Part shown: one piece after another, positions 1 to 15,700 of the stretch
How positions within the stretch are numbered: position 1 is the first letter of the stretch
How the letters are laid out: each line of letters begins with the position of its first letter
IMG/VR virus record: IMGVR_UViG_3300000115_000182
Location: 1 to 24,801 of that record
Direction: 5' to 3' (one strand)
Length of the DNA stretch: 24,801 nt
From: a virus
Position numbers and translations under genes: made by a program
The notes under the pieces: generated by a model
The model's database searches: none
What the model saw: only the letters and a program-made list of their open reading frames with translations
Told to the model about the DNA's origin: nothing

Positions 1-85
1 ACTTATCATAAAACTTTTTTGCTACCTTTTTAGGATAGTTTTTTAACATATCATCATTTTTCCAATATTGTTCAAATTTATTCAC
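1..85 (-). CDS. start of an unidentified gene (partial, runs off left edge)
   Basis: A GTG codon at 85-83 opens a frame that stays open for 28 codons to the window edge. It begins MNKFEQYWKNDDML and is rich in Lys, Asn and Tyr. The GTG overlaps the TGA of the preceding oxygenase gene by four bases (GTGA). A clear GGAG ribosome binding site lies at 96-93, seven bases upstream, which is what makes this a gene rather than a chance frame. The tight coupling suggests it belongs to the same modification-enzyme operon. Too little is visible to name a function. Confidence 0.6.
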   Translation of the reverse strand, partial: MNKFEQYWKNDDMLKNYPKKVAKKFYDK

Positions 86-588
86 GAATATGCTCCTACC
101 ATATGTACTCTATCTGTCCAACCTAAATTTAATGCAGTATGATATTGAGTTGTGTCCATCTCATATAACACACCAGGTTGATTCATTTCATAGAGTTGTT
201 TTTCTATTATAAAGAAACATTCTTCATTTGTCAATAGTGGAATGTGCAATCTCTTTGTTTCGTCTTTATGATATGAGTATGCTCTTCTATCTGAAGACAA
301 TCGCATAAACCTCCATTTGGTTGTATTATATGTTTTATTAATTATGTTTATAACTTCTTCCACATAAGAGTTTTTAAACCATTCATTCATAAGATTTAAG
401 TCAATCTCAGGTATTCTTTTATAATCTTCATTAAACTTATTGTCTACCATTACATTTTTACCGTCAAATGAGGTAATCGCTATTTGATTTTGGTCATATA
501 TGACATCTTTAGGTATCTCAACTGAATTATGCTTTATTAATAATTCTCTGAAATCAAATTTTAATTTAGTTTTTTTTATTGGTTGCAT
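82..588 (-). CDS. 2OG-Fe(II) oxygenase, aspartyl/asparaginyl hydroxylase-like
   Basis: This 168-aa protein looks like a small Fe(II)/2-oxoglutarate-dependent dioxygenase, probably a hydroxylase acting on a protein side chain or a small molecule. The C-terminal half carries the expected double-stranded beta-helix residues: H107-K-D109 as the HxD metal pair, H150 as the distal metal histidine inside an HxxxN motif (N154), and R160 as the likely 2-oxoglutarate anchor. The first 95 residues have no motif I recognise. It starts 23 bp inside the preceding oxygenase gene and is the third of three such enzymes in this operon. The short length and DRVHMV ending recall the aspartyl/asparaginyl beta-hydroxylase branch rather than phage prolyl 4-hydroxylases. 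The family call is fairly secure; the substrate is unknown. Confidence 0.7.
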   Translation of the reverse strand: MQPIKKTKLKFDFRELLIKHNSVEIPKDVIYDQNQIAITSFDGKNVMVDNKFNEDYKRIPEIDLNLMNEWFKNSYVEEVINIINKTYNTTKWRFMRLSSDRRAYSYHKDETKRLHIPLLTNEECFFIIEKQLYEMNQPGVLYEMDTTQYHTALNLGWTDRVHMVGAYS

Positions 589-1039
589 TTTTTATCTTTT
601 TCTTTACAGTTTCAAAATCGTCATCAAATATAGATAGTTTAAAAAGTAATCTATCTTCTGTTGTATTTTTAACACTATGTATTTTTTGAGTATTTAGTAA
701 GCAAATTTTATAGAAATAATCTACACCTTCTATAGTTACTGGTGCTGGATTATTTGTTTCTAGTAAAATATTTATAGAACATTTTGTTTGGTCATCAATA
801 TGCTCTGGTATATTAGAACCTTTTGGTAATGTATAAAATCTAGGTCTTACTTCACCTAAATTAAAATACCTTATAAGATATTTTGCATAATGAAAGTTAG
901 CAGGTATTATTCTCCAGTTCTCTGCTTGACCTCCTGGTCTTCTATCAACATAGTTTTCAGATGTGTGTTTTATTTTATCATACTCTAGTAATAAAATATC
1001 TTCATTGACATCAAAATTAAATTTATATATGTTGTTCAT
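566..1039 (-). CDS. 2OG-Fe(II) oxygenase-like protein
   Basis: A 157-aa protein with the facial triad of Fe(II)/2-oxoglutarate dioxygenases: H80-I-D82 in the context IPEHIDD, distal H121 in IHSVKN (again HxxxN), and R130 nine residues later as the probable 2OG-binding arginine. It is short for the superfamily, so it is probably little more than the catalytic jelly roll, and it resembles the neighbouring 168-aa enzyme in motif spacing. The ATG follows GGAAAG with a short spacer. The gene overlaps the preceding glycosyltransferase gene by 17 bp and the next oxygenase gene by 23 bp, so the genes are probably translationally coupled. The substrate is unknown; a tail or surface component is an inference from the operon context only. 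Confidence 0.65.
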   Translation of the reverse strand: MNNIYKFNFDVNEDILLLEYDKIKHTSENYVDRRPGGQAENWRIIPANFHYAKYLIRYFNLGEVRPRFYTLPKGSNIPEHIDDQTKCSINILLETNNPAPVTIEGVDYFYKICLLNTQKIHSVKNTTEDRLLFKLSIFDDDFETVKKKIKNATNKKN

Positions 1040-1721
1040 AATCTTTCCACAAATGTGGTTTATTCATAGAATGTGTAAAATGTACCATTTTTATATCAGA
1101 ATGAAATTCTCCTCCTAAATACACATAATTATTTCCACTTACTTTTTTATATTTAGAAGATATATTAGTTTTCCATTCCTTTCTCTTCATTGTTCCCGGT
1201 GTACCATCTACTACCCACCTCGTACACCATGCGTTTGGTAATAGTTTTAAATTCAATCTCTCTCGTACACTATCTTCAACAAAATACTGCTCACCATTTA
1301 TAGGTCCTTTTGTTGTTTTGTTTTTTATATAATGCGTTTGCCAATGATTAGGGTCTTTCATAAATTTATCATAAATATATTTTACGTCTTTAGGATAATA
1401 TTTAAAAAAACCACCATTTATTTTATACTGCTCTTGATTTGTATCTCTCCACCAACCAGGTATTGCTAAAAATTCACCTCTTGCAATGGGGTACTCAAAT
1501 ATTTTTTTATAATCATTAATTAATAATATATCGATATCCATAACACAGATAGGTTCATCAATGTCTAGATTCATACCATACATTTTATTCCACTGTAAAT
1601 GAACATTGTCTTTTATAGGTTTTCGTACCCAAATAAATTCATAATCAGGTAGTTTTTTCTCTAAGTATGTTTCATACTCAGGACCATATTTGTTACCTAT
1701 TCTAACCGTTACAATTTTCAT
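1023..1721 (-). CDS. glycosyltransferase-like protein, GT-A type
   Basis: A 232-aa protein (start at the ATG at 1721, MKIVTVRIG). It resembles a GT-A fold glycosyltransferase: a beta strand at the N terminus, then WNKM (44-47), then VMDID with D62-x-D64 as the probable metal and nucleotide-sugar DxD motif, and further on NGEQYFVEDSV, the usual position for acceptor and catalytic residues. A start nine codons upstream at 1748 is open, but it lies deeper in the preceding gene; ATG 1721 follows TGGAAAAAATACT and leaves a 20-bp overlap typical of this operon. The 192-aa protein at 5541-6119 shares the WNKM...DxD arrangement, so the two are probably distant paralogues. The donor sugar and acceptor are unknown. 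Confidence 0.6.
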   Translation of the reverse strand: MKIVTVRIGNKYGPEYETYLEKKLPDYEFIWVRKPIKDNVHLQWNKMYGMNLDIDEPICVMDIDILLINDYKKIFEYPIARGEFLAIPGWWRDTNQEQYKINGGFFKYYPKDVKYIYDKFMKDPNHWQTHYIKNKTTKGPINGEQYFVEDSVRERLNLKLLPNAWCTRWVVDGTPGTMKRKEWKTNISSKYKKVSGNNYVYLGGEFHSDIKMVHFTHSMNKPHLWKDYEQHI

Positions 1722-2868
1722 AGTATTTTTTCCATTCAGGAAACACATCTAAAAAATTAGTTTCTCTTAATCTATCTCTTCTCTTACAATGTCTTAACAT
1801 TTTCCACATATCAGTTTCATTATATTCTGCATTTTCTAAATATTTAATTAAATCAGTAGCACCTTCTTCATACAATTTGTTTAAATATATTTCTTTTATA
1901 TCATCAGGTATACTATTAACAGAATAAAAATTATTAGTTACTGGTGAACCTGCATGACCTTTTCTCATTTTAAGTAATTCTGGTATTCTTGCTATATTTA
2001 ATGCGTTTATTGTTGCGGTAAACATGACATCACCACCCCAAACTTTTTGCATCATATCATAATGTTTTAAAACAACTTTAAAATCTGAACCATGTCTAAT
2101 GTAATTTGTAACTACTTCAGGTCCTTCTGCTGAAACATTTATAATAACTTTTTTGAAACCATCTAAAATTTTAATTAGTTTTTCAGGATTTACTGTACCA
2201 TTTGTTATTATTCTAATAATGGTATTTTTATCTTGTTTTAACATTAATTTATAGTTATCTTTTACAAGTAGGGGTTCTCCACCCGTAAATTTAAATTCTA
2301 GTATTTCATAAGTTTTTAAATCATCATAAAAGTTTTTATAGTTTTTAGTTTTTGGAAACATAAAACTAAATTCACCTAATTTAACTGCTTCAGAATTATA
2401 TTTACTTGATGCTCCTTCACTACACATATTACATGCTAAATTACAAGTATTACCTCCTACAGACAATGCTTCAACACTATGCAAAAATGTAGGTGCAGAT
2501 TCTTCGTGTATTATTTTTTCTAATTCTTCTTTTTTATGTTTTAGTTCATCTTTTGTAAATCTTTCTAAGTACCATTGACGGTGAGACCTTAAACCTGCTT
2601 TTTCACTCTTTATACAGTTTTTACAAATGTCTTTAAAAAAATCTTTGTTATTTTCTTTTATTGCTTTTCTAAACTTTTTTACGAATGAACTATTGTAATA
2701 ATCTTGTATTGAATGCTTATCCGTTTTATACAGTTCATTACCAAAGTTTTCATATAATTCACCAGAGTCAATTGCACAACATGGATTATAATAACCTATG
2801 ACATTTGTGTACAAATTAGTAAAAGGTTCAGGACAAATCCACTCATAATCTTCTAATTTTTTAACCAA
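1702..2868 (-). CDS. radical SAM enzyme with N-terminal twitch/SPASM-like region
   Basis: A 388-aa radical S-adenosylmethionine enzyme. The cluster-binding motif is C142-x3-C146-x2-C149 (TCNLACNMC), followed by a GGEP motif at 196-199 that binds the SAM amino group. Upstream of the core is a cysteine-rich segment: C12 in ICPEP, C30-C31 in the NPCC segment, and C82-x2-C85. This is the pattern of the N-terminal 'twitch' auxiliary-cluster domain in a phage and bacterial radical SAM family. Such enzymes usually modify peptides or proteins, but the substrate here is not visible. The start is TTG at 2868-2866, supported by GAGG nine bases upstream inside the end of the preceding gene (8-bp overlap). 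There is no recognisable precursor peptide next to it. Confidence 0.85.
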   Translation of the reverse strand: MVKKLEDYEWICPEPFTNLYTNVIGYYNPCCAIDSGELYENFGNELYKTDKHSIQDYYNSSFVKKFRKAIKENNKDFFKDICKNCIKSEKAGLRSHRQWYLERFTKDELKHKKEELEKIIHEESAPTFLHSVEALSVGGNTCNLACNMCSEGASSKYNSEAVKLGEFSFMFPKTKNYKNFYDDLKTYEILEFKFTGGEPLLVKDNYKLMLKQDKNTIIRIITNGTVNPEKLIKILDGFKKVIINVSAEGPEVVTNYIRHGSDFKVVLKHYDMMQKVWGGDVMFTATINALNIARIPELLKMRKGHAGSPVTNNFYSVNSIPDDIKEIYLNKLYEEGATDLIKYLENAEYNETDMWKMLRHCKRRDRLRETNFLDVFPEWKKYYENCNG

Positions 2869-4282
2869 AGATTTCTTCCTCTCTCTTTTTTAAAGATTTT
2901 TTAAAATCTGGTAATCTTTCTTTTTGCCAAGGTGTTAATGCTAATTCAGTTGCTTTAGCATACCAATCTATTAAATTCATATCATCAGTTGATACATAAT
3001 TTTTTAAATTAAATATCGAACCTTTAAATATAGTTTTTTTAGAATTCCTTTTCATCTGTAAAAATAAATTATAGAAAGAAAAGAACCTTTGAAAGATATC
3101 ATAGTAATATGTTTCTGCTTCGTATGAAAATATATTACTTACATGAAATAAAACAGTATCAGAAGCATTAACATAAAAATTAAACTTTTTATGAAAAGTT
3201 TCTGTTAACAAATTACCTCTTAAAAAATCAATATTCTTTGCACATACCTCATCAAAGAATGATTCCCAATCACACATATCTTTCATCTCATCAAAACTTT
3301 TCTGTGCTAATTCTTTTGTATGTCCACTTCTATAACTAAAATTACTGTTATTTAACAACTCAATATAATCTTTACCATTCCAACCCATAAGCATTCCCTT
3401 ATAAACATCTATTGCTTCGTAACTAATATCATACATTAATATATTTTTAGGTTTTATGTTTGATTTTTGTATTACTTTAAATGGGTGAAATGCTGATGCT
3501 ATTGATATCAAAGTATCTACATTATCATTTAATTTTACTTCGTCTATAGTTTCAGTTTCAGTTGAAAAGAAACCATGATGATATTCTTTTGCATTTAGTG
3601 ACAATGATTTCATTAAACACTTCATGGTGTCGCCGTGATATGTGAACCACTTCAAAGGTTTTAACTCTGTAAATGGACTAACACCATAGTCTGCTGTCAA
3701 CAATTCAGATATCATATATCCACCAGGTAATACTTTTTCTACATCTGCTAAATCATCATCTTTTTTAATCCAAGTAGGTGTATAGTCATCATGAAAGTTT
3801 ACTAAAGACCTTTTTATTTTTGTAACATCTTTATTATCAGAATAATATTCTGGTGAACCTGCTAACTTCCATGCTTTTAAATTTAAGAAAAAACATTGCT
3901 CATGTAAAAAATAATATTGCTCTTTACAATCTAAAACGTGACCCATTAATGCAATGTTATTATCTAACATTTTTTTCACATTTTCAAAAAAGAAAGATGA
4001 ATTCATAAACGTACCATTTTTCATTACAACTAGTAGTTCATAATCTTTCGCATAAGCATCATCAATAGCAATATCTATATCTTCTTCTTTATAAAATCCT
4101 AAGATATCACATTTTCTTTTATAAAAATTATAAACAGTATTTTCTGTGTATGTTTCTACAATATATTTTACTAGGTCGTGTTTTATGATATGTCTATCAT
4201 CTATAACTGCAAATGCTACAGACTTTGACAGTAATTTAGGACTTCCTTTTAATGCTTGTTTTTTATCAGATATGATGTTCAT
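2861..4282 (-). CDS. unidentified 473-aa protein, possible glycosyltransferase-like N half
   Basis: I do not recognise this protein with certainty. Starting at the ATG at 4282 it has 473 residues. The N-terminal half alternates predicted strands and helices (AFAVIDD, ELLVVMKNGTFM, ALMGHVLDC, FFLNLKAW) in an order that recalls GT-A-like proteins, but I see no convincing DxD. The C-terminal half contains ILMYDISYEAIDVYKGML, which could be the second strand of a Rossmann or methyltransferase-like fold, and is rich in Phe and Tyr. A TTG four codons upstream (4294) is open, but the ATG has GAG eight bases before it. It overlaps its neighbours by 17 bp upstream and 8 bp (with the TTG-started radical SAM gene) downstream, so it belongs to the same modification operon. 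It may be a two-domain transferase. Confidence 0.6.
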   Translation of the reverse strand: MNIISDKKQALKGSPKLLSKSVAFAVIDDRHIIKHDLVKYIVETYTENTVYNFYKRKCDILGFYKEEDIDIAIDDAYAKDYELLVVMKNGTFMNSSFFFENVKKMLDNNIALMGHVLDCKEQYYFLHEQCFFLNLKAWKLAGSPEYYSDNKDVTKIKRSLVNFHDDYTPTWIKKDDDLADVEKVLPGGYMISELLTADYGVSPFTELKPLKWFTYHGDTMKCLMKSLSLNAKEYHHGFFSTETETIDEVKLNDNVDTLISIASAFHPFKVIQKSNIKPKNILMYDISYEAIDVYKGMLMGWNGKDYIELLNNSNFSYRSGHTKELAQKSFDEMKDMCDWESFFDEVCAKNIDFLRGNLLTETFHKKFNFYVNASDTVLFHVSNIFSYEAETYYYDIFQRFFSFYNLFLQMKRNSKKTIFKGSIFNLKNYVSTDDMNLIDWYAKATELALTPWQKERLPDFKKSLKKREEEIFG

Positions 4283-4943
4283 AATATTTCTCAAAACTCT
4301 TTACAAATAATTCTGCAAAATCATAATCATACTCAGCATGTGCTATAATATGAAATCTATTTTCATTTGACTTGTTATAAGCATGGTGATACTCATCATT
4401 ATTAAACATATAAACCTCTAAAGGTTTAAATGGAACAACACCATTACTTAAATGTTCTAACACGCAGTTTTTTGGTTGTGTTATACATATATTTAGTGCA
4501 GAAAAAATACTCTCTTTTTTTCTCTCCGTATATGGTATTCCTGTCGGAGTATCACTATGTTCTAAGATATAACCACCAGGTCGTAATAACATATATCTTA
4601 ATCTTCTATAATTTTTTAATGGTATGTCTTTTTTAAAAAAGTCTACTGTCTTTGGTGCATAATCGCAAACATCTGTCCAATCCCATTTTATATTTTTATC
4701 ACTATCACTATGATAACCATATTGCTTACCACTCATAGTTTTCCAGTAAGCACCTTCAACTCCATGAATACTAGTAGAATCCCAACCCTTATGTTTTTTA
4801 CCTCTATGACTAACAAAAAATTCTTCTTTGTGGACAGTCTGCACTTCTTGAATAGATTCTTTTGGTAGTTGTACATCTAATTTTAAATGAAAAAGATTAT
4901 GTGTCTTAATAATATCTTCTACTTTATTCCAATAATTTTTCAT
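4266..4943 (-). CDS. 2OG-Fe(II) oxygenase, aspartyl/asparaginyl beta-hydroxylase-like
   Basis: A 225-aa protein with the best oxygenase signature of the three in this operon. RYMLLRPGGYILEHSDTP carries H129-S-D131 as the HxD metal pair, SALNICI supplies the next strand, H186 in YHHAYN is the likely distal histidine with the HxxxN spacing (N190) shared by its two relatives, and R196 in ENRFHII is the likely 2-oxoglutarate ligand. The RPGG-x-I-x-x-H-x-D arrangement is typical of the aspartyl/asparaginyl beta-hydroxylase and related phage dioxygenases. About 110 N-terminal residues precede the core. Its start follows an AGGAAC sequence, and it overlaps the upstream methyltransferase-like gene by 4 bp. 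The target is unknown. Confidence 0.78.
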   Translation of the reverse strand: MKNYWNKVEDIIKTHNLFHLKLDVQLPKESIQEVQTVHKEEFFVSHRGKKHKGWDSTSIHGVEGAYWKTMSGKQYGYHSDSDKNIKWDWTDVCDYAPKTVDFFKKDIPLKNYRRLRYMLLRPGGYILEHSDTPTGIPYTERKKESIFSALNICITQPKNCVLEHLSNGVVPFKPLEVYMFNNDEYHHAYNKSNENRFHIIAHAEYDYDFAELFVKSFEKYYEHHI

Positions 4944-5566
4944 TGTTTTGTTCCTATTAATAGAAATCTTGAATATTCACCTATCTTATGTGAATAGGAT
5001 TTGTAATCAATAAAATACTCTTTAAACTTTTCTACTAACTCCTTTTCACTAGTTATTAAGTTACTATGGTCTCTTGCAGGTTTGTCTGTACTTTGTAAAA
5101 CACAGATAGTATCTTTTTTAGCAGTAAATAACCAATGATGTAAAGTATCGTCACTCATATGTTCACATGAAGTATTAATTGTTAAGTTATACCTATACTC
5201 TTGAAAATTTATTGTTGATATATCTTTAGTTACAAAATGTGTAATCTTATTGTCGTGAAAAAGAACTTTTCCTACATTTTTTGCTACACTGTCTACATCA
5301 TAACATCTTATCTCAGTCATATGTTTATTAAAATAATTTTTTAATAGATATGATAGATAACCATACCAAGAACCTAGTATTGCAATTTGAAATATTTTTT
5401 TTGTGTTACTTGTATACTCGTTTAGACATTTTATCAACCACACTTTACTTTCTTTTTGTGTGGGACTAAAACAGTGAAATATATCAACTGCTCTATTAGG
5501 ATATTTTTTTATTGCTTTTTTTACTCTTAGTTGCCAAAACTCACTGTCGATTTTTAAATTTTCCAT
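4940..5566 (-). CDS. SAM-dependent methyltransferase-like protein
   Basis: A 208-aa protein with the outline of a class I methyltransferase. A glycine-containing loop after a hydrophobic strand (IAILGSWYGYLSYLL, 61-75) stands where motif I binds SAM. RCYDVD (87-92) ends the second strand with an acidic residue for the ribose, and LTINTSCEHMSD (128-139) matches the strand-4 position, where many O- and N-methyltransferases have an N/D-P-P or similar catalytic loop. A late strand FLLIGTKQ ends the protein. Its stop overlaps the next gene by four bases (ATGA) and its start lies inside the preceding glycosyltransferase gene. Methylation of a sugar or protein in the same pathway is plausible but not shown. 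Confidence 0.6.
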   Translation of the reverse strand: MENLKIDSEFWQLRVKKAIKKYPNRAVDIFHCFSPTQKESKVWLIKCLNEYTSNTKKIFQIAILGSWYGYLSYLLKNYFNKHMTEIRCYDVDSVAKNVGKVLFHDNKITHFVTKDISTINFQEYRYNLTINTSCEHMSDDTLHHWLFTAKKDTICVLQSTDKPARDHSNLITSEKELVEKFKEYFIDYKSYSHKIGEYSRFLLIGTKQ

Positions 5567-6119
5567 TATATAATGTAATTACCTTTTTTGTATAATTTTT
5601 ATCTTTCCAACTCATAATCGTATCTGTGTCAAAATATTTATAAGTAATATTTTCATTGTATATAAAACGGTCAATACCCTTATATAATCTAAAAAATGTG
5701 TCGTGATTGTTTGCAAATTTTTGGTAAATGTCTTGTGCAAAACTCCATCTCATAACAGAAGTATTTACTAAAGTATTATTTCTAACTTTAAATCCTAAAT
5801 TTTTTTTATTATCTTTCCATTTACTTGAGTCTATAAGTGTAAAGTGTTCAAAATCATCTGCTAAGAAATCTATATTATCATGTATTTTAATATCCAAATC
5901 AAAGTATAAACTATTTCCGACGTAATTAAAGAAATGCATTTTGTTCCACACATCAGGAAATTTTCTTACAATAGGAATATCGTAATCTTTTTTAGGTTTA
6001 TCTGTTAAACAAAAAAACTTATGTTCTTTTGCTAAATACTTACTTACAGAGTCTTTTAATTTGGTAACAAAACTTCTATCATATTTACTATCACATTTTA
6101 AACAATACACATTAATCAT
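5541..6119 (-). CDS. glycosyltransferase-like protein, GT-A type
   Basis: A 192-aa protein that looks like a small GT-A glycosyltransferase. It opens with a strand (INVYCLKC), has FFCLTDKP (35-42), WNKM (58-61) and then LYFDLDIKI with D74-x-D76 as the probable DxD metal site, followed by LIDSSKW and NTSVMRW. This order (FxCLTD, WNKM, DLD, N-[ST]-x-x-M-x-W) fits a group of small phage and bacterial transferases acting on surface glycans. The C terminus, with a YKYFDTDTIMSWKD segment, is short. It overlaps the radical SAM gene by 8 bp upstream and the methyltransferase-like gene by 26 bp downstream. The sugar, acceptor and whether it acts on host or virion are unknown. Confidence 0.65.
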   Translation of the reverse strand: MINVYCLKCDSKYDRSFVTKLKDSVSKYLAKEHKFFCLTDKPKKDYDIPIVRKFPDVWNKMHFFNYVGNSLYFDLDIKIHDNIDFLADDFEHFTLIDSSKWKDNKKNLGFKVRNNTLVNTSVMRWSFAQDIYQKFANNHDTFFRLYKGIDRFIYNENITYKYFDTDTIMSWKDKNYTKKVITLYNGKFKNRQ

Positions 6120-7089
6120 TTAGTTTCTTTCTTAGATTATTTTTTGAACAAAATCTTTTACATGATTTGGATGGTAACACAGTCCAAGAATTTTGTAAAT
6201 GCTGAAAGAAATCAGAGAATAATAATATATCAGATAAATCATTTTGTATAGCATTGTTATCGTTTTCATCATACCACTCTAGTATAGCATCATCATTTTC
6301 ATTAAATCGTTTTTTTAAAAACGAACCACCTAGATAGCAACAAGCATGTACATTACCTTGAAAATCTAAGAAGAATTCATTATCTTTCTTTGCTTTACAA
6401 TTCACATCACCAGATATTTCAAATGATAATGATTCATCAGGTTCTTCTAATCTATACTTTTTATCTTTGTATGTAAACGCCCATTCATCTGCTCTAGCAA
6501 ATCTTTGAGTTCTTATAGACACAAATTCATTAAATCCTAATCTCTTAGACATTTTTCTAGCAATATTAATTTGGTTTTTATTATGTTTGAATATAATAAA
6601 CTGCCATCTAGCATTACCACCAGCATCAATAAATGCTTTTGCATTTCTTATTACTTTCTTAAAATTTGTATTGATACGATAGTATGAATGTGTATTATTC
6701 AATCCATCAAGTGCAAATGTTATCCTATGGTCTATGTCTTTAAGTGTTTCACCTAGATTTTTAAAATATTTTGGAGTTTTTAGACTACCGTTTGTAGCAA
6801 TGTCTATTCTTTTAGCATGAGGTTTTAGATATTCTACAATAGAGGTAAAATCTGTACTAGTAAGAGGATCGCTAATATTGCCACAGAAGTTGACACGACC
6901 AAGATTAAATGTATCAAAAAATCTACTGTTGAAAATATTCTTGATTTGAGTGAAAGATAATTCATTTTTATCAAAAGTAGGAACCTTTTTTAATTCACCG
7001 TTCTTAATATACTGTCGCCCACACATTGAACACAAAGCATTACACTTATCTGTCAATTCAATGTGAACATTCACATCTTTTTTAAACAA
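6112..7089 (-). CDS. radical SAM/SPASM-like enzyme
   Basis: A 325-aa radical SAM protein. C16-x3-C20-x2-C23 (KCNALCSMC) is the cluster motif placed a few residues from the N terminus, as expected. The GGEP position is replaced by CGNISDPL (69-76). A C-terminal cysteine set (C241, C260-C261 in HACCYLGG, C320 and C324) is the SPASM-type auxiliary iron-sulphur domain found in enzymes that modify peptides or proteins. The annotated start is TTG at 7089, four bases past the stop of the preceding gene; its ribosome binding site is weak, and a GTG five codons inside is an alternative. It is the first gene of the modification cassette, directly after the structural genes, and differs in architecture from the other radical SAM gene. 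Confidence 0.82.
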   Translation of the reverse strand: MFKKDVNVHIELTDKCNALCSMCGRQYIKNGELKKVPTFDKNELSFTQIKNIFNSRFFDTFNLGRVNFCGNISDPLTSTDFTSIVEYLKPHAKRIDIATNGSLKTPKYFKNLGETLKDIDHRITFALDGLNNTHSYYRINTNFKKVIRNAKAFIDAGGNARWQFIIFKHNKNQINIARKMSKRLGFNEFVSIRTQRFARADEWAFTYKDKKYRLEEPDESLSFEISGDVNCKAKKDNEFFLDFQGNVHACCYLGGSFLKKRFNENDDAILEWYDENDNNAIQNDLSDILLFSDFFQHLQNSWTVLPSKSCKRFCSKNNLRKKLND

Positions 7090-7092
7090 AAT

Positions 7093-7608
7093 TTATTTTC
7101 TAGTTCTTTTACCTAATCTACCTATAAGAACAGCAAACGCCATAAATGCTTCTAATGGATCTTCTGCTTTTCTTAGTTTAGATTTTTCATCTGCATTTTT
7201 AGAATTTTTAACTCTTTCATCTTCAAATAAATCAAGTTTTATTCTGAATAGTGTTTCTGACTGACTTTTTTCCTTTGGGTCAAAAGATTTTATAAATGTA
7301 GACATTTTATTATGCATCATTCTATCAATTTGTGCTGGATCCCAATCTTTTGGTTCCGATAAAGACCATCTTTTTACAAGTCTTTTTAATTCTTGCATAT
7401 AGACTTCTGCTCTCTTATTTGTTTGTTCTTCAATTTCTTCTAGAGGTACTTCTTTTAATAATTCTTTGAAATAGTGACCATCAGGTTCAACAGAAACAAA
7501 AAATTCTGAATTTGCTTTTGCTTCATCATCTCTCCATATAACTGCTATAGTATCTTTTTGATTATTTGTAAAGTATGCTTCTATTACTTTTCCACTAAAT
7601 TCTGCCAT
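7093..7608 (-). CDS. unidentified 171-aa protein at the end of the tail-gene block
   Basis: I do not recognise this protein. It begins MAEFSGKVIEAYFTN with a beta-rich 40 residues (VIEAYFTN, IAVIWRDD, FFVSVEPD), followed by a highly charged helical stretch (LEEIEEQTNKRAEVYMQELKR) and a basic C terminus LIGRLGKRTRK. A strong ribosome binding site (AGGAGA) precedes the ATG. It sits 11 bp after the 320-aa structural gene and 3 bp before the first modification enzyme. The charged, Lys/Glu-rich make-up and the position after fibre genes would suit an assembly chaperone or minor virion component, but no motif supports either. Confidence 0.7.
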   Translation of the reverse strand: MAEFSGKVIEAYFTNNQKDTIAVIWRDDEAKANSEFFVSVEPDGHYFKELLKEVPLEEIEEQTNKRAEVYMQELKRLVKRWSLSEPKDWDPAQIDRMMHNKMSTFIKSFDPKEKSQSETLFRIKLDLFEDERVKNSKNADEKSKLRKAEDPLEAFMAFAVLIGRLGKRTRK

Positions 7609-7619
7609 AATTAATTCTC

Positions 7620-8582
7620 CTAATGTTTTTGTATTTCAAATTTATGAGTTGCGGCGGTTGTTGCTGAACCGTTTGGAAATTCCTGAGACCTGTAATCATC
7701 ACTTACTTGTCGTGTTTGATAGTTACCAGAACCATCTAAAATTGTGTTTACCATTCCTGTTCCTCTTTGAGTAGCACTTTGATTGTAAACATATCTAATT
7801 TTATGATTAGCATCACTTTCTGATGCTGTTTCTCTTATCCATTCTAACAAATAACCTTGCCAATCTGCTAAAGGAAATGTCTGCAAATTACCATCACTAT
7901 TTATGAATAAAGGACACCCATTATCTTGTGTAAGATTTGGTTCTGTACCTTGGTCTATTTTAAATAGATAATAGTTGCTTATAGTTGTTGGTTGGTCTGC
8001 TGTTTCTGGTATACCATCTGATGAATACTCACCCGTATCCGCTCTTGTATCTGTAAAAATAGGATTTGATGATACCAATGTGCAATTTGATAATGTTGTT
8101 GCACTATTTACAGTATATGTACCACCTTGATTTTCTTTATCAGAAAATGCTGATACTAATAAGTCAATTGCTGGATGTAAAAAAGTATCTTTAATATCTG
8201 TTAAATTCATTGCTTGAATATTACCACCAGATGTTAGATACACCGGCCATAGTCTTCCTCCGTCTGCTGTTGGAGAAACACTTGCATTTGTTTGTGTTAT
8301 TCTATTATAACTAACGGTAACAGTTTGAGGTTCTTCTGTAGAACCTTCTGCCACAAAAGCAGTTGTGCTTGTAGAAGTTGCACCAGCAGATTTTCTTGTA
8401 TCAGTTATTGCTCCACCTGTTAAAGAACCACCCGTTGCAGATGACTCTACTGTCAATGTTACTGAAGGATTTCCTGCATATGCAAATATGCAATAAGAAA
8501 CACTTAGGGCAATTTCCGCATCTGTCATTCTTCTTGGGTTATTTACTGTTGCATCATATATTAGTGGGTCTCTTGCCGCCAT
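7620..8582 (-). CDS. putative virion structural (fibre or baseplate-associated) protein
   Basis: A 320-aa protein dominated by Thr, Ser, Gly and Asn and starting MAARDPLIYDATVNNPRRMT. The N terminus resembles a group of marine T4-like phage structural proteins of unknown role. The central part (TGGSLTGGAITDTRKSAG, VTVSYNRITQTN) is predicted to be beta-rich. The segment DWQGYLLEWIRETASESDANHKI near the C terminus is probably helical. The ATG has a strong AGGAGA site ten bases upstream. It lies between the small fibre-like genes and the 171-aa gene, in the same transcript. A virion role is inferred from composition and location; I do not see a catalytic motif. Confidence 0.65.
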   Translation of the reverse strand: MAARDPLIYDATVNNPRRMTDAEIALSVSYCIFAYAGNPSVTLTVESSATGGSLTGGAITDTRKSAGATSTSTTAFVAEGSTEEPQTVTVSYNRITQTNASVSPTADGGRLWPVYLTSGGNIQAMNLTDIKDTFLHPAIDLLVSAFSDKENQGGTYTVNSATTLSNCTLVSSNPIFTDTRADTGEYSSDGIPETADQPTTISNYYLFKIDQGTEPNLTQDNGCPLFINSDGNLQTFPLADWQGYLLEWIRETASESDANHKIRYVYNQSATQRGTGMVNTILDGSGNYQTRQVSDDYRSQEFPNGSATTAATHKFEIQKH

Positions 8583-8603
8583 ATTTTAATCTCCTATATT
8601 TTA

Positions 8604-8831
8604 TTACGAACCAGGTGTGAAAATAGTTTTAACAACAGTTGAACCATCAGATGCTAAAATTTGTATGGTAACCGCAGACGCCATCTTTGCTGAAGTCACT
8701 GCTGTTGAAGATAATTTGTCATTAGTTACTGCGTCATCATTTATCTTCGCAGTCGTTACATTACTGTCGGCAATATCTGCTGTTGCCACTGTGCCATCTG
8801 TAATATTGTCAGTTGTAATTCTTGTTGTCAT
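8604..8831 (-). CDS. small fibre-like protein with TxxIxDxxVTxxKL-type repeats
   Basis: A 75-aa Thr/Ala/Asp-rich protein. Residues 1-52 are built from short degenerate repeats (ITTDNITDGTVATADIADSNVTTAKINDDAVTNDKL), a pattern common in phage tail fibres, where it forms elongated trimeric shafts. A short C terminus (VTIQILASDGSTVVKTIF) follows. It is much shorter than a full fibre, so it may be a small fibre, a fibre-associated piece or the relic of a larger gene. It has its own late promoter TATAAATA at 8859-8852 and a GAGG site before the ATG, which argues against it being debris. No receptor-binding domain is visible. Confidence 0.65.
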   Translation of the reverse strand: MTTRITTDNITDGTVATADIADSNVTTAKINDDAVTNDKLSSTAVTSAKMASAVTIQILASDGSTVVKTIFTPGS

Positions 8832-8851
8832 TTATACCTCTTTACTATATC

Positions 8852-8859
8852 TATTTATA
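8852..8859 (-). promoter_or_regulatory. T4-type late promoter
   Basis: The leftward strand reads TATAAATA, an exact match to the T4 late promoter core recognised by the phage late sigma factor (gp55 type). It stands 20 bases before the ATG of the 75-aa fibre-like gene, with a GAGG ribosome binding site between, and in the 32-bp gap after the 205-aa gene. Confidence 0.7.
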
Positions 8860-8863
8860 CACG

Positions 8864-9481
8864 TTATGAAGTTATCAATTCTCTCACATTTATAATAACC
8901 CCATTTGCAGGTGCTGTGGTAAATGTTAATGTTGTGCTTGATATTGCATAATCATCAGTTGGTTGCTGAACAACACCATTTTCTGTAACGATTACTGATG
9001 CTGTTGCTTGACCACTCGTCACAGTAAAACCTGTTGTCGAACCGTCTCCCGTATATTTTCTATTGTTGAATGATACAGAACCAATACCACCTATATCTGA
9101 TAACACTTGGGCACCAGTTCTTGTTTTTATTACTCCGCTGTCACTCACTAAAAATTTATCTGTATCAGAACCAGCGGCGGCGATACTTCCTAATGCAATT
9201 GCAAATGTTACAGAATCATCAACTTGACTAACAGTTGCAGTGATTCCAGAACCACCACTAAATTTTAGTGTATGATTAGTTGATATAGTTGCTTCTGTTG
9301 AAGAATCATCACCAATTACAAAGGTTGCTGATGCTTGAGAGGCGAGATTTACTGCTTCAACTAAATCGGTTGCACCAGTAACACTTAAATTAGTAATATC
9401 TCCCACATCAGTTGCTAAACTGTTAAATGTAGTTCTGAATGTTTCTACTGTATTGGTTGTTGCTACACTTCTATCTGCCAT
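8864..9481 (-). CDS. tail-fibre-like protein with C-terminal GDGSTTGF module
   Basis: A 205-aa fibre-like protein. The N terminus TTNTVETFRTTFNSLATDVGDI resembles the start of many marine phage fibre proteins. Residues 56-95 (IGDDSSTEATIS...FSGGSGITATV) match a repeat also present in the 300-aa protein at 17483-18385. Residues 144-202, with GDGSTTGFTV, ENGVVQQPTDDYAIS and the ending VREL, form a module also found at the C terminus of that protein and near the end of the 2089-aa protein. The start follows TAGGT and overlaps the preceding 77-aa gene by 11 bp. A role as small fibre, adaptor or decoration is inferred. No enzymatic motif is seen. Confidence 0.7.
   Translation of the reverse strand: MADRSVATTNTVETFRTTFNSLATDVGDITNLSVTGATDLVEAVNLASQASATFVIGDDSSTEATISTNHTLKFSGGSGITATVSQVDDSVTFAIALGSIAAAGSDTDKFLVSDSGVIKTRTGAQVLSDIGGIGSVSFNNRKYTGDGSTTGFTVTSGQATASVIVTENGVVQQPTDDYAISSTTLTFTTAPANGVIINVRELITS
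8876..9052 (-). repeat. GDGSTTGF module, copy 1 (codes for 59 aa)
   Basis: This is the coding stretch for residues 144-202 of the 205-aa fibre-like protein. It is related to copies at 10118-10294 and 17486-17662. The key shared residues are T-G-D-G-S-T-T-G-F at the start, a central (E/K)NG, Q-P-T/E-P with an aromatic two or three residues later, S-TTLT, and TAPA near the end. Stretches of DNA similarity are also visible with the copy at 17486-17662. Confidence 0.75.
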
Positions 9482-9704
9482 TTTTACCTACTAATTTTTT
9501 AATTAAATCTTTAATTTCATATAACTCTTGTTTAAGGTTATTTATTTCTCTACAAGCATCTCTTATTTTATCATTATTTTTTTTCATTGCTTTTCTTCTT
9601 TGCATATACTTTTCATAATCAGATTTATTTGTATTTACTATTGCACTTGAATATTCATCTCTTACTAAATCTTGATAACCCTCTACTTTTAATACTTTAC
9701 CCAT
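9471..9704 (-). CDS. small charged coiled-coil protein
   Basis: A 77-aa protein, MGKVLKVEGYQDLVRDEYSS and onward. The N terminus (VLKVEGYQDLVRDEYSSAIVNT) recalls short proteins next to structural genes in marine T4-like phages. Residues 30-72 are strongly helical and charged, with heptad-like spacing of Ile and Leu (REINNLKQELYEIKDLIKKL), suggesting a coiled coil. Its ATG shares one base with the stop of the 2089-aa gene (TAATG), so translation is probably coupled. Its stop lies 11 bp inside the next fibre-like gene. It may be a linker or chaperone for fibre assembly; nothing in the sequence proves this. Confidence 0.65.
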   Translation of the reverse strand: MGKVLKVEGYQDLVRDEYSSAIVNTNKSDYEKYMQRRKAMKKNNDKIRDACREINNLKQELYEIKDLIKKLVGKNGR

Positions 9705-12700
9705 TATGTTGCTAGTGCTATTGCTCTAAAGTCTTTTATTCTGACTGGATAAGACGAAACACTCCCTTTCATTACAATTTTTATTTGAAATGATGAAAAC
9801 TCAGGTAAATCACTTATTGAAAATTTATGTTCTTTAAATAACTCATCAGCAACAGTGCCATCTACTGGAGTTACAGCAATATCAGGTGCACCGCCTGTAT
9901 TAAATGCAGTGTATGATATATCATTTAACTTTCTAGTTTCTTCACCACCTGTTGTTCTAAAATATGCTTCAATAGTTGATGTTGTAAACACAGAAGCATC
10001 AACTCTAATTTCTAATGCTTGTGATGGATTTGCTAATGTAATTGGTCTTGTCAAGTAAACACTTGATGAAGAACCACCTTCATTATCAGTATCTTCTATA
10101 AAGTTAATAGTATTTGTAATTTTTGCAACAACTTTATCATCTGATGCTGGTGCTGTACCTAAGGTTAATGTTGTACTTGATACTGTAAAATCATTTATAG
10201 GTTCTAATAATGTTCCATTCTTTTTTACTTGCATAATATGTGCATTTGTTGGTGTTGCACTTAAAGTAAATCCTGTTGTTGAACCATCACCAGTAAAGGT
10301 GTCAGTTGAACTGACTGTTGGATTACTTACTCTATTTTGTATAGCAAATGATGTTAATGCTTTAGTATCTATCACAGGTGATAAATTATTTACTGTAGAA
10401 ACTATTGATGTATTTAACAGTAATGATTTATAGTTTGTAGTTGCAGATAATTCATTTGTTTGATTTATAGATGATGCAATAACTCTAGGTTCTGTGAAGT
10501 ATATGTTTTTACCAAGAACTATGCTTCTAGCATTACTTGATGAATCTAAACTAAATGGTGTTTCTGTACCATGTATAGATTTACCGGTTGTTGTTCTTAA
10601 TGTAGAAGACAATGTTGTTTGAGGATGAACAATGTGACCTATTTGTAATTGTAATACATCAAATGCTCTATTTTGTGTCGCAGTAATATTTGAACCACCA
10701 ACTTCACTTGTTGCATTTGCATCATTACCAGCAGTTGTAATATCATAACTATCAAAAGTAATGTTTGATATTGAGGTATAAGTTCCATTTATACTACTAT
10801 TTGAAATATTATTATATGTACCTGAACCAACACTTGCTATTGTGACATTATCAGATGTTGACATCATTCCGTGGTTTGGATGTTTTACTCTTATTACTTT
10901 GGTACCATTAAAAGTTGTCAAAGGATTTAATGCTAATGTTTTTGTTGGAATATCTTTGTTTGCAAAAGTTACTGTACCAGTTGTGCCTGTTGTAAACTTA
11001 CATCTATTTAATTTGTATTTTAAATCTTCCATTTGCTCAGGTGTCCAAGTTCTATAATTAGAAGATTTAAAGAGAATACCTAAATCGGGTATCTTAGAAA
11101 CTATCCTATTACCATCAAGTGTCTTATCACCCAATCTACAAATGTATGCTGTATAATCAAAAGAGTCAGAATAAAATATCACACAATATTCTGTTCCTTC
11201 ATGTAGGTATACTGGTGAAGGAAATACAAATTTAGTTGCTACTGAACCATCTGTACTTGTGGTAATCTCTGAAGGATTTAAATACTTTGTGGAAAATGGT
11301 ACAACATCTGTACCAGGATATCCGTTAATCATATTTCTAATTTCACATCTAACAGGAACAGTAGATGATTTTGTAGCAAAGAAAATTTCAACACTTGAGA
11401 AAAAAGCACCATTTTCAATATCTACCATAAATGATTGTGCGAGTGGGTCACCACCAGCGCCACCGCCACCGCCTCCTCCTCCTCCAAATTGTTGGACACG
11501 TGGTTGAGGTATTGCTTCAGACAATGTTCTATTTGATGTTGTGCTGGTTCTTACAACTTGAATTTCTCTAGTTGATGTAAATACCCCTCTGACAGTTTCT
11601 TGCAAACCTTTTGCTACATAATCTGCTTCGGCAGATGTTGCTACATTTGTTTTATCATCTGAGTTTGTTGAAGAACTTGTTAATCTAAAAACTCTTTTAC
11701 CAGTTCTCCATCTAGGATTTGCGTCTGTGCTAGGGTCAGGAATTGCAAATGTACCCGTTGCTGTTCCGTTTGTATCTGTAATAATACTTCCACCTGATGA
11801 ACCACCTGTAGGTGTGACATAGGTATTGATATCTTCATTATCAAAGAAAGCATATACTCTTGTGTTTGGTCGCATACCTCTTGCAGTAAACGATATATCT
11901 CTTGCTCTTATAAAAGGAATAAAGTTAACACCGACAACTCTATCACCTAAATTTTCTGTTACTGTTAATGGAATTGCTGTTGAACGAATACCACTTCTTG
12001 TTTGACCAGTTCTTCTAACATTTCCAGAAACTCCTGTCCATTGTGTTTGCCATTCATTCCATTCTGTACCCATAGGTATTTCTGTAATATTAGGATTTGA
12101 TAATCCTAACTCGTCTACTAAATTGTCAAAAGCACCTCTAACATTTACAGTTAAGTCAGGTACTCTTACAACATCTTTCCACATATCTACGGGTGGGTCT
12201 AAATCTATTTTACCAATCCAATCAAAAACTGCATATGGATTTAAATTTTCTGTAGCAGTTGCATAAGGCACATCAATAACCGTTTCTTCTGTATAAGGTA
12301 ATGTTATTAAATCACCAGTTTTTTGATAACCTGCATCTGTTCTATCTGCTTCAACGATTGCTGTACCGTCTTGGTCAACTTCTTCTAAATCAACAGCATC
12401 AGAAAAATATAAACCTCTTCCTTCACCTGTTGTTCTATCTACTGCAAACTTGTAATCATTGTTAGATACATCACCAATATTATGACCAGAAAAGTTATCT
12501 ACGACAAATCCGTTTTTAAATCTATCAAATCCATCAGAGTCTTGAATTTGTAATGACTTTGAATCTATTTCTAACATAGAAAGTTGTGTATAGTATTCTG
12601 TATTTGATATTCTTTTTTCTAATTCTCCAATATCTTTCATAGTATATCTTTTTGTATCTTGTAAATCAACTTCGACATCGGATGTAGATAATGTGTAAGA

Positions 12701-15700
12701 AGGAACATTTACAAGTGCAGTATACAAATGACCCTCTAAATTTGATGGTGCTTCTGGTATTATTGCAGGTGCACCTTTTGAAACTCTAAATTCACCATTT
12801 CTTGTTAAGAAAATTTTATCTATTCTTTTAAGATAAAATTCAAAGTCAGCAGTTATATCGTTATTAAACTCAACAACATCACAATCAGACGCACCTGTAC
12901 CATCATAACTTCTATCAGAATTTCCTGAACCTATTGTAGATGCATCATCAACTCTAGGTCTAAAATCTAGACAATCTCTTAACTGAAAAATTTCACCTGT
13001 TGTATCTGATGTATATGAAGATATATTTTCATAGTCTACAATACCTGAATAACTGTCAACGTCAAAGTAATCACCTGTACCGTGTGAGAAGAAATCAAAA
13101 TCAATTAGTAATCTTCCTGTTGGTACTAACTTACCAGGTTTTAATTTAATTCTACCAATATCATAGTAGTTATCTCTTTGACCATTATCTAAATCAAATC
13201 TATCTGTTATGTCTGTATGACTTGTAGTAGCGGTGGTACTAAAATCTGGCGCCATATAAACTTTATTTAAAACTTTAATATCTGCTTTACCCAAACCAAC
13301 TACACCACTTTCAATGGTTGCTTGAGTAGACACTGCTAAAGTTTCATCTTCATTTAATGTTTTAGATTTTGATGGTGCTACACTTCTTGAAACAGTTGTT
13401 AGTATTTTTACCTTATGACCATTGAAGTTTGCACCAAAGTCTAGTGTTAATGTTCTACCCGTTGGTGAACCTGAAAGGGCAAATATTGCATCACCTTCGT
13501 GATTATTACCTGATAAATTTAAAACATCACCAACAGCACCTGTTCCACCAGAACCAGTTGACATTATTGTTACTGAGAAATCATCATTATTTAATGATGC
13601 AAAAGTTTCGTTTGTTCCTGTGGTAATAGATATATCACCGTTTGATGATAAAGTACCTGTAAAATTTCTTCTTACATTAAAGTTTGTATCTGTAACTAAA
13701 CCATTTGCAGTTGTCTTTAATGTTTTGATTGTTTCATAAGGTAATTTAAAAATATTAGTATTATTTTCAGGATTTTGTAATTTACCTCTTTGTCTTGTAA
13801 CGACTTTAGCAGTTGATACATCAGAACTACCGACAGCAACCGTTAATGTAAGTGAAGTTGCAGAATCAATATATTTAACTAAACGAGTTAATGAAGTACC
13901 TGCATTGTTTGTAAATGTAATTTGGTCTCCAATTTTTAACTCTGTATTAAAATTTGTACCAGAACCTGTTACTGTAGAACCACTATTTGCTACTGTTATA
14001 TTTCCAGTCAAAGTAAAATTATCACCATATGTAGATGTTAAATCTGTATCAGCAGTATAGTTTGGTGAACCTGACATTCCGATTTGTTTTACTTCTGAAG
14101 TATCTGCTATTCTAACACCTTTGTAACCAAATCTATCAGTTTGAATTGTACCTGTTACATTTGAAGTAGCACCATTAATAATTTCACCTGCTTCAAAAAA
14201 TCCTTGAACATCACTCAGTACAACGACTGTGTGTTTTGCAGTTGGACCAGATGTGAATGTAGTTACATTAGGAAAACCTGTTCCACTTGCATCATATAAT
14301 TCAAAAGTATTTGTTGTTGTATTTTTTACGGTGTAAATTGTATCAGAAGAAACGGTGGTACTATCTACTTGATAATTTCCACCTGATAAAGTAATTTGTT
14401 GACCATCTGTAAATCCATGTGCATTTAGTGTTACAACCGCCGCCGAAAATGCACCTTCAATATCTGTACCAGATGCAGTTATTGATGTAACTGCTGTACT
14501 TTTAGTTTCTGTTACTGCTTGAACAACACCTGTTCCACCATTTGATGCACCACTTACTATTTCACCTGTTGTAAATGATACTGATGTAGGTATACTAACT
14601 CTTGTGAACATTTCAATATCAAAAAGATAGTGTCTAAAAATAGTTGCTGAAGTTCCTGCGTAGATATCATTAGTTTCTGTACCTGCAACATATTCAAAAC
14701 CTCTAGTTTTTGCTCTACCTATTTCAGGAACAGTGACACCTACAGATGCTTGAAGTGTTCCTCTTGCACTTGTTTTTGTATCAAAAAGAGTTAATGTTTT
14801 AAATGCTTCAACATCACCAGATACGAATGTAATATCAGGTTGACCAAAAACATTATTTACATTAATAAAATTCTTTATGTCGTATCTTGTTTTGTGATTG
14901 TTTTCTGTTTCAAAATCTCTTGCTTTATCAACTGCTACAAATGTAGTAGCAATTCTATCTATTTCATAACCTGAAACATATGCTTTGAAAGGGTCAAAAC
15001 CAATCGCTATTTTTGTACTATCACCACCATTTTCTGATGTAAAGATACCTCTGTTGGTACCACTTTTTAAATGCTCTCTTATTTCTGTTTTTAATGGTTG
15101 AAGTGTATAATGTCCTGATTCATCAAATGTTCTTCTTGCTAAATTTTCTTCTAGAACAGAATATTCTGTATTTCTAACCAATCTTTTAACATTACCTTGT
15201 TCAATTCTTGCTATCTCAAAGAAATTTGAATCTTCAGTTGATGATAAAGTTTTTTTAGCAAGTGCTAAAGATATTTTAAATCTGTGGGCACCTGGTGCTG
15301 ATTCGTTAGATGAACCAGTTGCATTATCATTTAATGAACTATCATCACTTGGTGTGACAAAACTTTCTGTTATCGTAAAACCCATTCTGTAACTTGATGT
15401 ATTCGTGTACTTATCTAACACCAATGTTTCTTGTGAGTTTCTGATAAAGAAACCATCATAGTAATAAACACCTGCTTGTACTTGAACTGCCGAACCTATG
15501 TGTGCAGTTGCTACGACAACTGTAGGACTTCCATCAGCACTTGATGTTAAAGTTTCACCTGCATCAAAAACTGTTTTAGCATTGTTTGTACCAGTTTTTG
15601 TGTATCGAACATATAATGTGTCTGGGTCAGTTCCGTCTGTTACATCTACTTTAGTAACAAATCCTACAACACCTGATGAACCACCTGTAAGTGTTGTATT

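Follow-up and report, generated by a model that had tools for sequence, protein, structure and literature searches.

Pelagimyophage genomes carry a hypervariable host recognition cluster (HRC) with glycosyltransferase and radical S-adenosylmethionine (SAM) genes, for which the published account favors modification of the host O-chain (Zaragoza-Solas et al., 2020, PMC7029224). We analyzed such a locus in the virus record IMGVR_UViG_3300000115_000182 of IMG/VR, taken over its whole length of 24,801 bases (the window), in which nine open reading frames (ORFs) form an island of putative tailoring enzymes, including an oxygenase, OG3, and an unnamed protein, u477, whose genes are recurrently paired. 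The island is of the published HRC type: it has the borders (VrlC side to neck side), the fiber genes with glycosyltransferase and radical SAM cassettes, and the hypervariability described there. With regard to the placement of the HRC between VrlC and the neck gene gp14, a VrlC-like gene is present in the window, and the neck side was seen only in a related contig, L015. In contrast, the OG3-u477 pair, the fixed border at a tail-region gene (fib320), the split in strand orientation among relatives, and the recurrence outside T4-like phages do not appear in the consulted passages of the HRC account (PMC7029224). As far as we searched the open-access PMC literature, the pair, its breadth, the fixed border genes, and the strand split are apparently undescribed.

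The closest cultured relative by fib320, Pelagibacter phage Mosig (EXVC030M, MT647606), harbors an island at the same site, beside a homologue of fib320 (48% identity). The Mosig island contains genes for AspH, radical SAM, methyltransferase, aminotransferase, carbamoyltransferase, and nitroreductase proteins. It differs in having ~25 genes on both strands and in giving no match to u477 in two single queries of a 50,697-record phage collection, in which no other record matched u477 either. Campylobacter phage CP220 contains a comparable operon, located behind baseplate/PAAR genes, in which two nucleotide-diphospho-sugar-transferase-like genes come after several radical SAM genes. It differs by an amidinotransferase-like gene, by radical SAM proteins that are ~25% identical, and by the lack of AspH or u477 matches in tblastn searches with the window proteins.

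The nine ORFs of the window (82-7089, minus strand, reading leftward) overlap their neighbors by 4 to 47 bp each. They encode two radical SAM proteins, three AspH-type 2-oxoglutarate (2OG) oxygenases, two glycosyltransferase-like proteins with DxD motifs, one methyltransferase-like protein, and u477. Both radical SAM proteins and two of the three 2OG proteins passed the Pfam cut-offs; the third 2OG protein, the two glycosyltransferase-like proteins, and the methyltransferase-like protein were identified through motifs and relatives. The cassette and the enzyme families named in a preliminary description of this DNA were thus confirmed by ORFs, Pfam, motifs, and relatives, with a strength that varies between families.

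The OG3-u477 pair

OG3_225 (4266-4943, minus strand), the partner of u477, is an AspH-family 2OG-Fe(II) oxygenase (PF05118, 29.4 bits for a cut-off of 22.6). Together with OG1_168 (82-588, minus strand; 24.5 bits), it combines a PF05118 (Asp_Arg_Hydrox) score above the cut-off with the HxD...H facial triad, and its HxD...H...R residues are invariant across 83 aligned sequences. u477 (2861-4294, minus strand), which has 473 aa counted from an ATG and 477 aa from a TTG, gave no match in Pfam, PHROG, or NCBIfam. We found relatives of u477 in 295 IMG/VR contigs and only four matches among 84,980 species genomes, one of which evidently is a phage contig with neck genes. The latter (L101, CAJWSQ010000087.1) is labelled as a Flavobacteriales metagenome-assembled genome (MAG), carries an island followed by phage neck genes, and seems to be phage DNA assigned to a bacterial MAG by binning. 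An OG3-type AspH gene was located at most two genes from u477 in 29 of 34 dereplicated loci, compared with 7.4 loci on average and at most 16 for random genes of the same loci (1,000 draws). Moreover, the order rSAM325-MT208-OG3-u477-rSAM388 recurs in many viruses. One u477 relative (35467-36663 in G045, the record of locus L115) contains two in-frame TAG codons and lies beside a second copy; TAG reassignment or a broken copy is possible.

We then looked into the fold of u477. Its sequence profile had no match in the PDB even at an E value of 10. The AlphaFold model obtained with 36 sequences reached a pLDDT of 89; a model from 5 sequences was of low confidence (47.8) and was discarded. Ranked by Foldseek E value, the solved structures closest to u477 were LH3 (a lysyl hydroxylase/glucosyltransferase), mimivirus R699, COLGALT1, and ADP-glucose pyrophosphorylases; the PBCV-1 capsid glycosyltransferase came 20th, and methyltransferases resembling NNMT stood lower in the list. 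The matches to the GT-A fold had E values of 1e-5 to 1e-3. Three uncultured-phage proteins in BFVD matched u477 over nearly its full length (TM-scores of 0.57 to 0.74). We tentatively read u477 as a two-domain protein with a GT-A-like N half and a class I methyltransferase-like C half, since the TM-scores of its PDB matches, obtained with a two-domain query, are below 0.5. The model suggests a weak resemblance to hydroxylysine glycosyltransferases: the mimivirus collagen glucosyltransferase R699 (PMC9546862), human LH3, and COLGALT1 are of a chemistry in which a 2OG hydroxylase works together with a GT-A enzyme. From these proteins and from the PBCV-1 enzyme, u477 differs by the low TM-scores, by a window copy without DxD, and by the lack of a collagen-like substrate.

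The genomic setting of the pair was compared across phage records. Five contigs (G031, G032, G033, G036, and G040) share one arrangement, in which a gp6-like gene is followed ~33 kb downstream, without a change of strand, by the u477 cluster. It follows tail/fiber proteins in G033 and ends there near a gene with a fiber-type N terminus, and in G034 one of its ends adjoins a tail-fiber-type gene. Baseplate_J was also tried as a tail marker in relatives and was uninformative. The enzyme clusters of G033 (L137/L183) and G034 (L142/L187) that reach fiber-type genes are very large; they contain numerous radical SAM and 2OG-like genes and, as judged by eye, SDR, SGNH, and PP-loop-like genes. A cellular cluster with u477, OG3, and several N_Twi-type radical SAM genes was found in a Bdellovibrionales MAG (L098, JAHDFM010000016.1); one of its radical SAM-like proteins is 39% identical over ~630 aa to that encoded at L190:14536-16386 in a phage island.

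Site, layout, and expression of the island

An alignment search of IMG/VR with fib320 gave 363 relatives, of which 80 were fetched, and we compared those loci in which 5.4 kb or more follows fib320 (29 after dereplication). An enzyme island was present in 25 of them, with a relative of MT_208 in 24 and of u171 in 25; the four loci lacking an island carry structural or unassigned genes at that place. Gene order and content vary strongly among the islands. The sister islands add NAD-epimerase (E value, 5e-27), DegT aminotransferase (2e-79), nitroreductase, carbamoyltransferase, TauD dioxygenase, and fatty acid desaturase genes, and this enzyme set points to a probable modified-sugar chemistry. 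In 17 relatives, fib320 is immediately followed by the epimerase gene, which is on the tail strand. Transmembrane-like segments were absent from the nine island proteins of the window and occurred in only 16 of 356 ORFs of the sister islands, one of which had four or more. At the end of two sister islands (L191:4751-6825 and L193:65-1787), a signal-peptide-like protein comes after a multi-pass membrane protein that, by eye, resembles TctA. In a further sister island, one protein of 978 aa joins a radical SAM domain to a complete carbamoyltransferase (L035:5465-8401; PF02543 and PF16861), and relatives of 957 aa (L092) and 975 aa (L032) cluster with it.

Relative to the tail genes, the 25 islands are on the opposite strand (convergent) in 15 cases, on the same strand in 6, and mixed in 4. 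Therefore, fusion to the tail operon, as put forward in the preliminary description, holds for the window phage, whereas cotranscription with that operon is not conserved across the group. Leftward on the minus strand, the window encodes baseplate wedge proteins, the VrlC-like protein of 2,089 aa (9704-15973; phrog_358; C terminus 49% identical to "VrlC" of Mosig), which marks one border of the HRC, and short fiber-like proteins, namely, fib205 (8864-9481; phrog_18673) and fib75 (8604-8831; phrog_28766/892, tail fiber). These are followed by the 320-aa tail-region protein fib320 (7620-8582), which borders the island, u171 (7093-7608; unnamed, 171 aa), and the nine ORFs. The island had been placed directly after the fiber genes; it does lie beside the fiber region, with u171 intervening between the last fiber-like gene and the first island ORF, from which u171 is separated by 3 bp. 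No terminator-like site was found on the coding strand over positions 1 to 10000, in agreement with the earlier claim that none separates the cassette from the structural genes.

We then searched for promoters. The T4-type late motif TATAAATA occurs six times in the window, always on the coding strand. This total is not above chance (5.6 expected), and its placement alone is informative: four copies sit 6 to 21 nt ahead of structural ORFs, although such 40-nt upstream regions make up ~2% of the window. The other two copies are in the island, inside ORFs. The closest intergenic copy ahead of the island (8852-8859, minus strand) precedes fib75, with no coding-strand terminator between it and the island. 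A late motif stands ahead of fib320 in 14 of the 29 relatives, and several blocks of structural genes or of same-strand enzyme genes start behind late motifs in three long relatives. Late expression of the window's island, which had been anticipated for a tailoring pathway beside fiber genes, is likely from these motifs, and the fiber neighborhood recurs in other phage groups; late expression of the convergent islands is unproven. A published pelagiphage transcriptome deals with HTVC022P and HTVC027P and includes no phage like HTVC008M. Perfect sigma-70 hexamers (TTGACA-17-TATAAT; ~0.07 expected per window) are present at 234-206 on the minus strand, inside OG1, and also in L015. We rejected them as the island promoter: they precede the left-edge genes, not the island, and overlap a conserved protein motif.

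Beside OG1, OG3, and u477, the island comprises the following genes, all on the minus strand. rSAM_325 (6112-7089) is a radical SAM protein with CxxxCxxC and a C-terminal Cys-rich (SPASM-like) tail (PF04055, 37.0 bits for a cut-off of 29.5; phrog_21308, E value of 4.7e-24), and rSAM_388 (1702-2868) is a twitch-domain radical SAM protein, also with CxxxCxxC (N_Twi_rSAM; NF033640, 220.3 bits for a cut-off of 170; PF04055, 40.3 bits). GT_192 (5541-6119; DxD in FDLDIK), a small protein with relatives in most sister islands, and GT_241 (1023-1748; DxD in VMDIDIL), with relatives 63 to 84% identical, are both GT-A-like; they have no match in Pfam, NCBIfam, or PHROG and were identified by DxD motifs and context. 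MT_208 (4940-5566) is class I methyltransferase-like; its own Pfam match is subthreshold (E value, 0.065), and a clear family relative matches Methyltransf_25 (5e-5). OG2_157 (566-1039), 2OG-oxygenase-like with an HxD motif, has no Pfam match, and a 78% identical relative adjoins OG1 in L015. The mean GC content of the island ORFs is 0.272, compared with 0.339 for the structural ORFs (P = 0.0016). We discarded a recent foreign origin, since GC at third positions is not lower (0.180 versus 0.153) and the difference therefore reflects protein composition.

The operon was said to continue past the left edge, and indeed the 5' end of a tenth gene (1-98, minus strand) is open there. Its frame matches the start of a complete 236-aa gene in L015 (2OG-like HxD by eye), which has no Pfam or NCBIfam match. 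L015 shares rSAM_388, GT_241, OG2, and OG1 with the window (68 to 84% identity) and continues beyond OG1 with the 236-aa gene, proteins of 188, 69, and 113 aa (the last of tail-fiber-assembly type, phrog_1084/phrog_3304), fibers, and a neck protein (phrog_211). The relative L003/L019 matches the other side of the island in the same gene order (40 to 80% identity). From these comparisons, the island appears as a filled-in gap between two tail-fiber gene sets. The 2OG-like and small-protein pair at the distal end of L015 was considered as homologous to the AspH and acetyltransferase pair of Mosig, and BLASTP gave no match.

Candidate targets of the modification

We propose that the nine genes represent most of one shuffled tailoring island for late cytosolic hydroxylation and glycosylation, with virion fibers as the likeliest target, a reading that we find credible while rating it slightly short of probable. 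The island, located in the tail-fiber (host recognition) region of a marine T4-like phage, would be transcribed late with the structural genes, and its soluble enzymes would act on a substrate in the host cytoplasm, with a tail-fiber or tail protein as the likeliest candidate. AspH-type 2OG enzymes would hydroxylate it, radical SAM enzymes would oxidize or rearrange it, and others would methylate and glycosylate it. In the core step, OG3 would hydroxylate a residue, on which u477 with GT_192 and GT_241 may build a sugar, to be tailored further by the radical SAM enzymes and the methyltransferase, and the surface of the adhesin would thereby be varied. A virion protein, with a fiber as the best guess, is favored because of the near absence of membrane proteins, the location, and the pairing of a hydroxylase with a glycosyltransferase; the preliminary description had named virion proteins or the cell surface, and we infer the former.

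Several observations weigh against this proposal. Fiber linkage of the u477 cluster is common and not universal, because the clusters of G033 and G034 adjoin fiber genes and those of jumbo-type records do not: in the latter, the gp6-like gene is far from the OG3-u477 pair, which in L110 adjoins a ThyX-like gene (by eye). Genomes of Bdellovibrionota carry the pair in cells. The preliminary description had taken conserved occurrence far from tail genes, together with host LPS or cofactor genes, as a sign against its reading, and the jumbo-phage and Bdellovibrionota cases bear this out in part. The 15 convergent islands count in the same direction, as do the three long relatives, in which no late motif heads the convergent block. 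Many lipopolysaccharide (LPS)-core glycosyltransferases are also soluble, so the scarcity of membrane proteins is not decisive. Regarding u477, besides the low TM-scores, the window copy has no DxD at the expected place (VVMKNGTF there; DADTEF in some relatives), and a collagen-like substrate, suggested by the fold matches, was rejected as no G-x-y runs occur in the window or neighboring ORFs.

A host surface glycan, LPS O-chain or core, may instead be modified during infection, which would exclude competing phages or stop progeny from re-adsorbing; the site in the fiber region would follow from both traits tracking receptor identity. This is the reading given for pelagimyophage HRCs in the published account (PMC7029224), and we consider it rather unlikely here. 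The convergent islands, which require their own promoter, are in line with it. So are the genes for epimerase, DegT aminotransferase, carbamoyltransferase, and SGNH-like proteins, all of them typical O-antigen enzymes. However, no flippase, polymerase, or lipid-linked initiating transferase was recognized in the window or the sister islands, and membrane proteins are very few. The late motifs and the epimerase gene between tail genes also speak for virion proteins over the host surface, and the AspH-type oxygenases of the island lack membrane segments, unlike LpxO, which has them.

The auxiliary-cluster radical SAM, AspH oxygenase, PP-loop-like, and carbamoyltransferase genes resemble natural-product tailoring, and a related cluster exists in the Bdellovibrionales MAG, including the radical SAM-like protein 39% identical to one of a phage island. 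Both would fit an island that yields a small diffusible product, peptidic or aminoglycoside-like, or that modifies a small cofactor, rather than a macromolecular surface. We judge this improbable: scanning ORFs of 60 aa upward revealed no precursor-peptide ORF among the nine overlapping ORFs, which appear to leave no room for one, and several glycosyltransferase-like genes per island at a constant site between fibers are not expected of such a pathway. If auxiliary genes had gathered passively at a recombination hotspot and shared no pathway, the strong variation of gene order and content between relatives would be accounted for, but this is a very remote prospect given an OG3-u477 pairing far above control, the gene order recurring in many viruses, tightly overlapping ORFs, and intact catalytic motifs. 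DNA hypermodification was also considered and rejected, as the nine proteins contain no nucleotide-modifying or DNA-glycosyltransferase signature.

Returning to the proposal of virion modification, we speculate, with considerable doubt, that OG3 and u477 constitute an unrecognized, virus-centered system that hydroxylates and then glycosylates proteins, with which many marine phages would decorate their own tail fibers, as a prokaryotic-virus counterpart of lysyl-hydroxylase/collagen-glycosyltransferase chemistry. If fibers are modified, this would be a new protein-modification pathway in viruses, and sequence alone could not predict what these abundant marine phages bind. Even if the host surface is the target, the OG3-u477 pair offers a defined core, open to assay, for the "LPS-like" islands of marine T4-like phages, which have long lacked an explanation.

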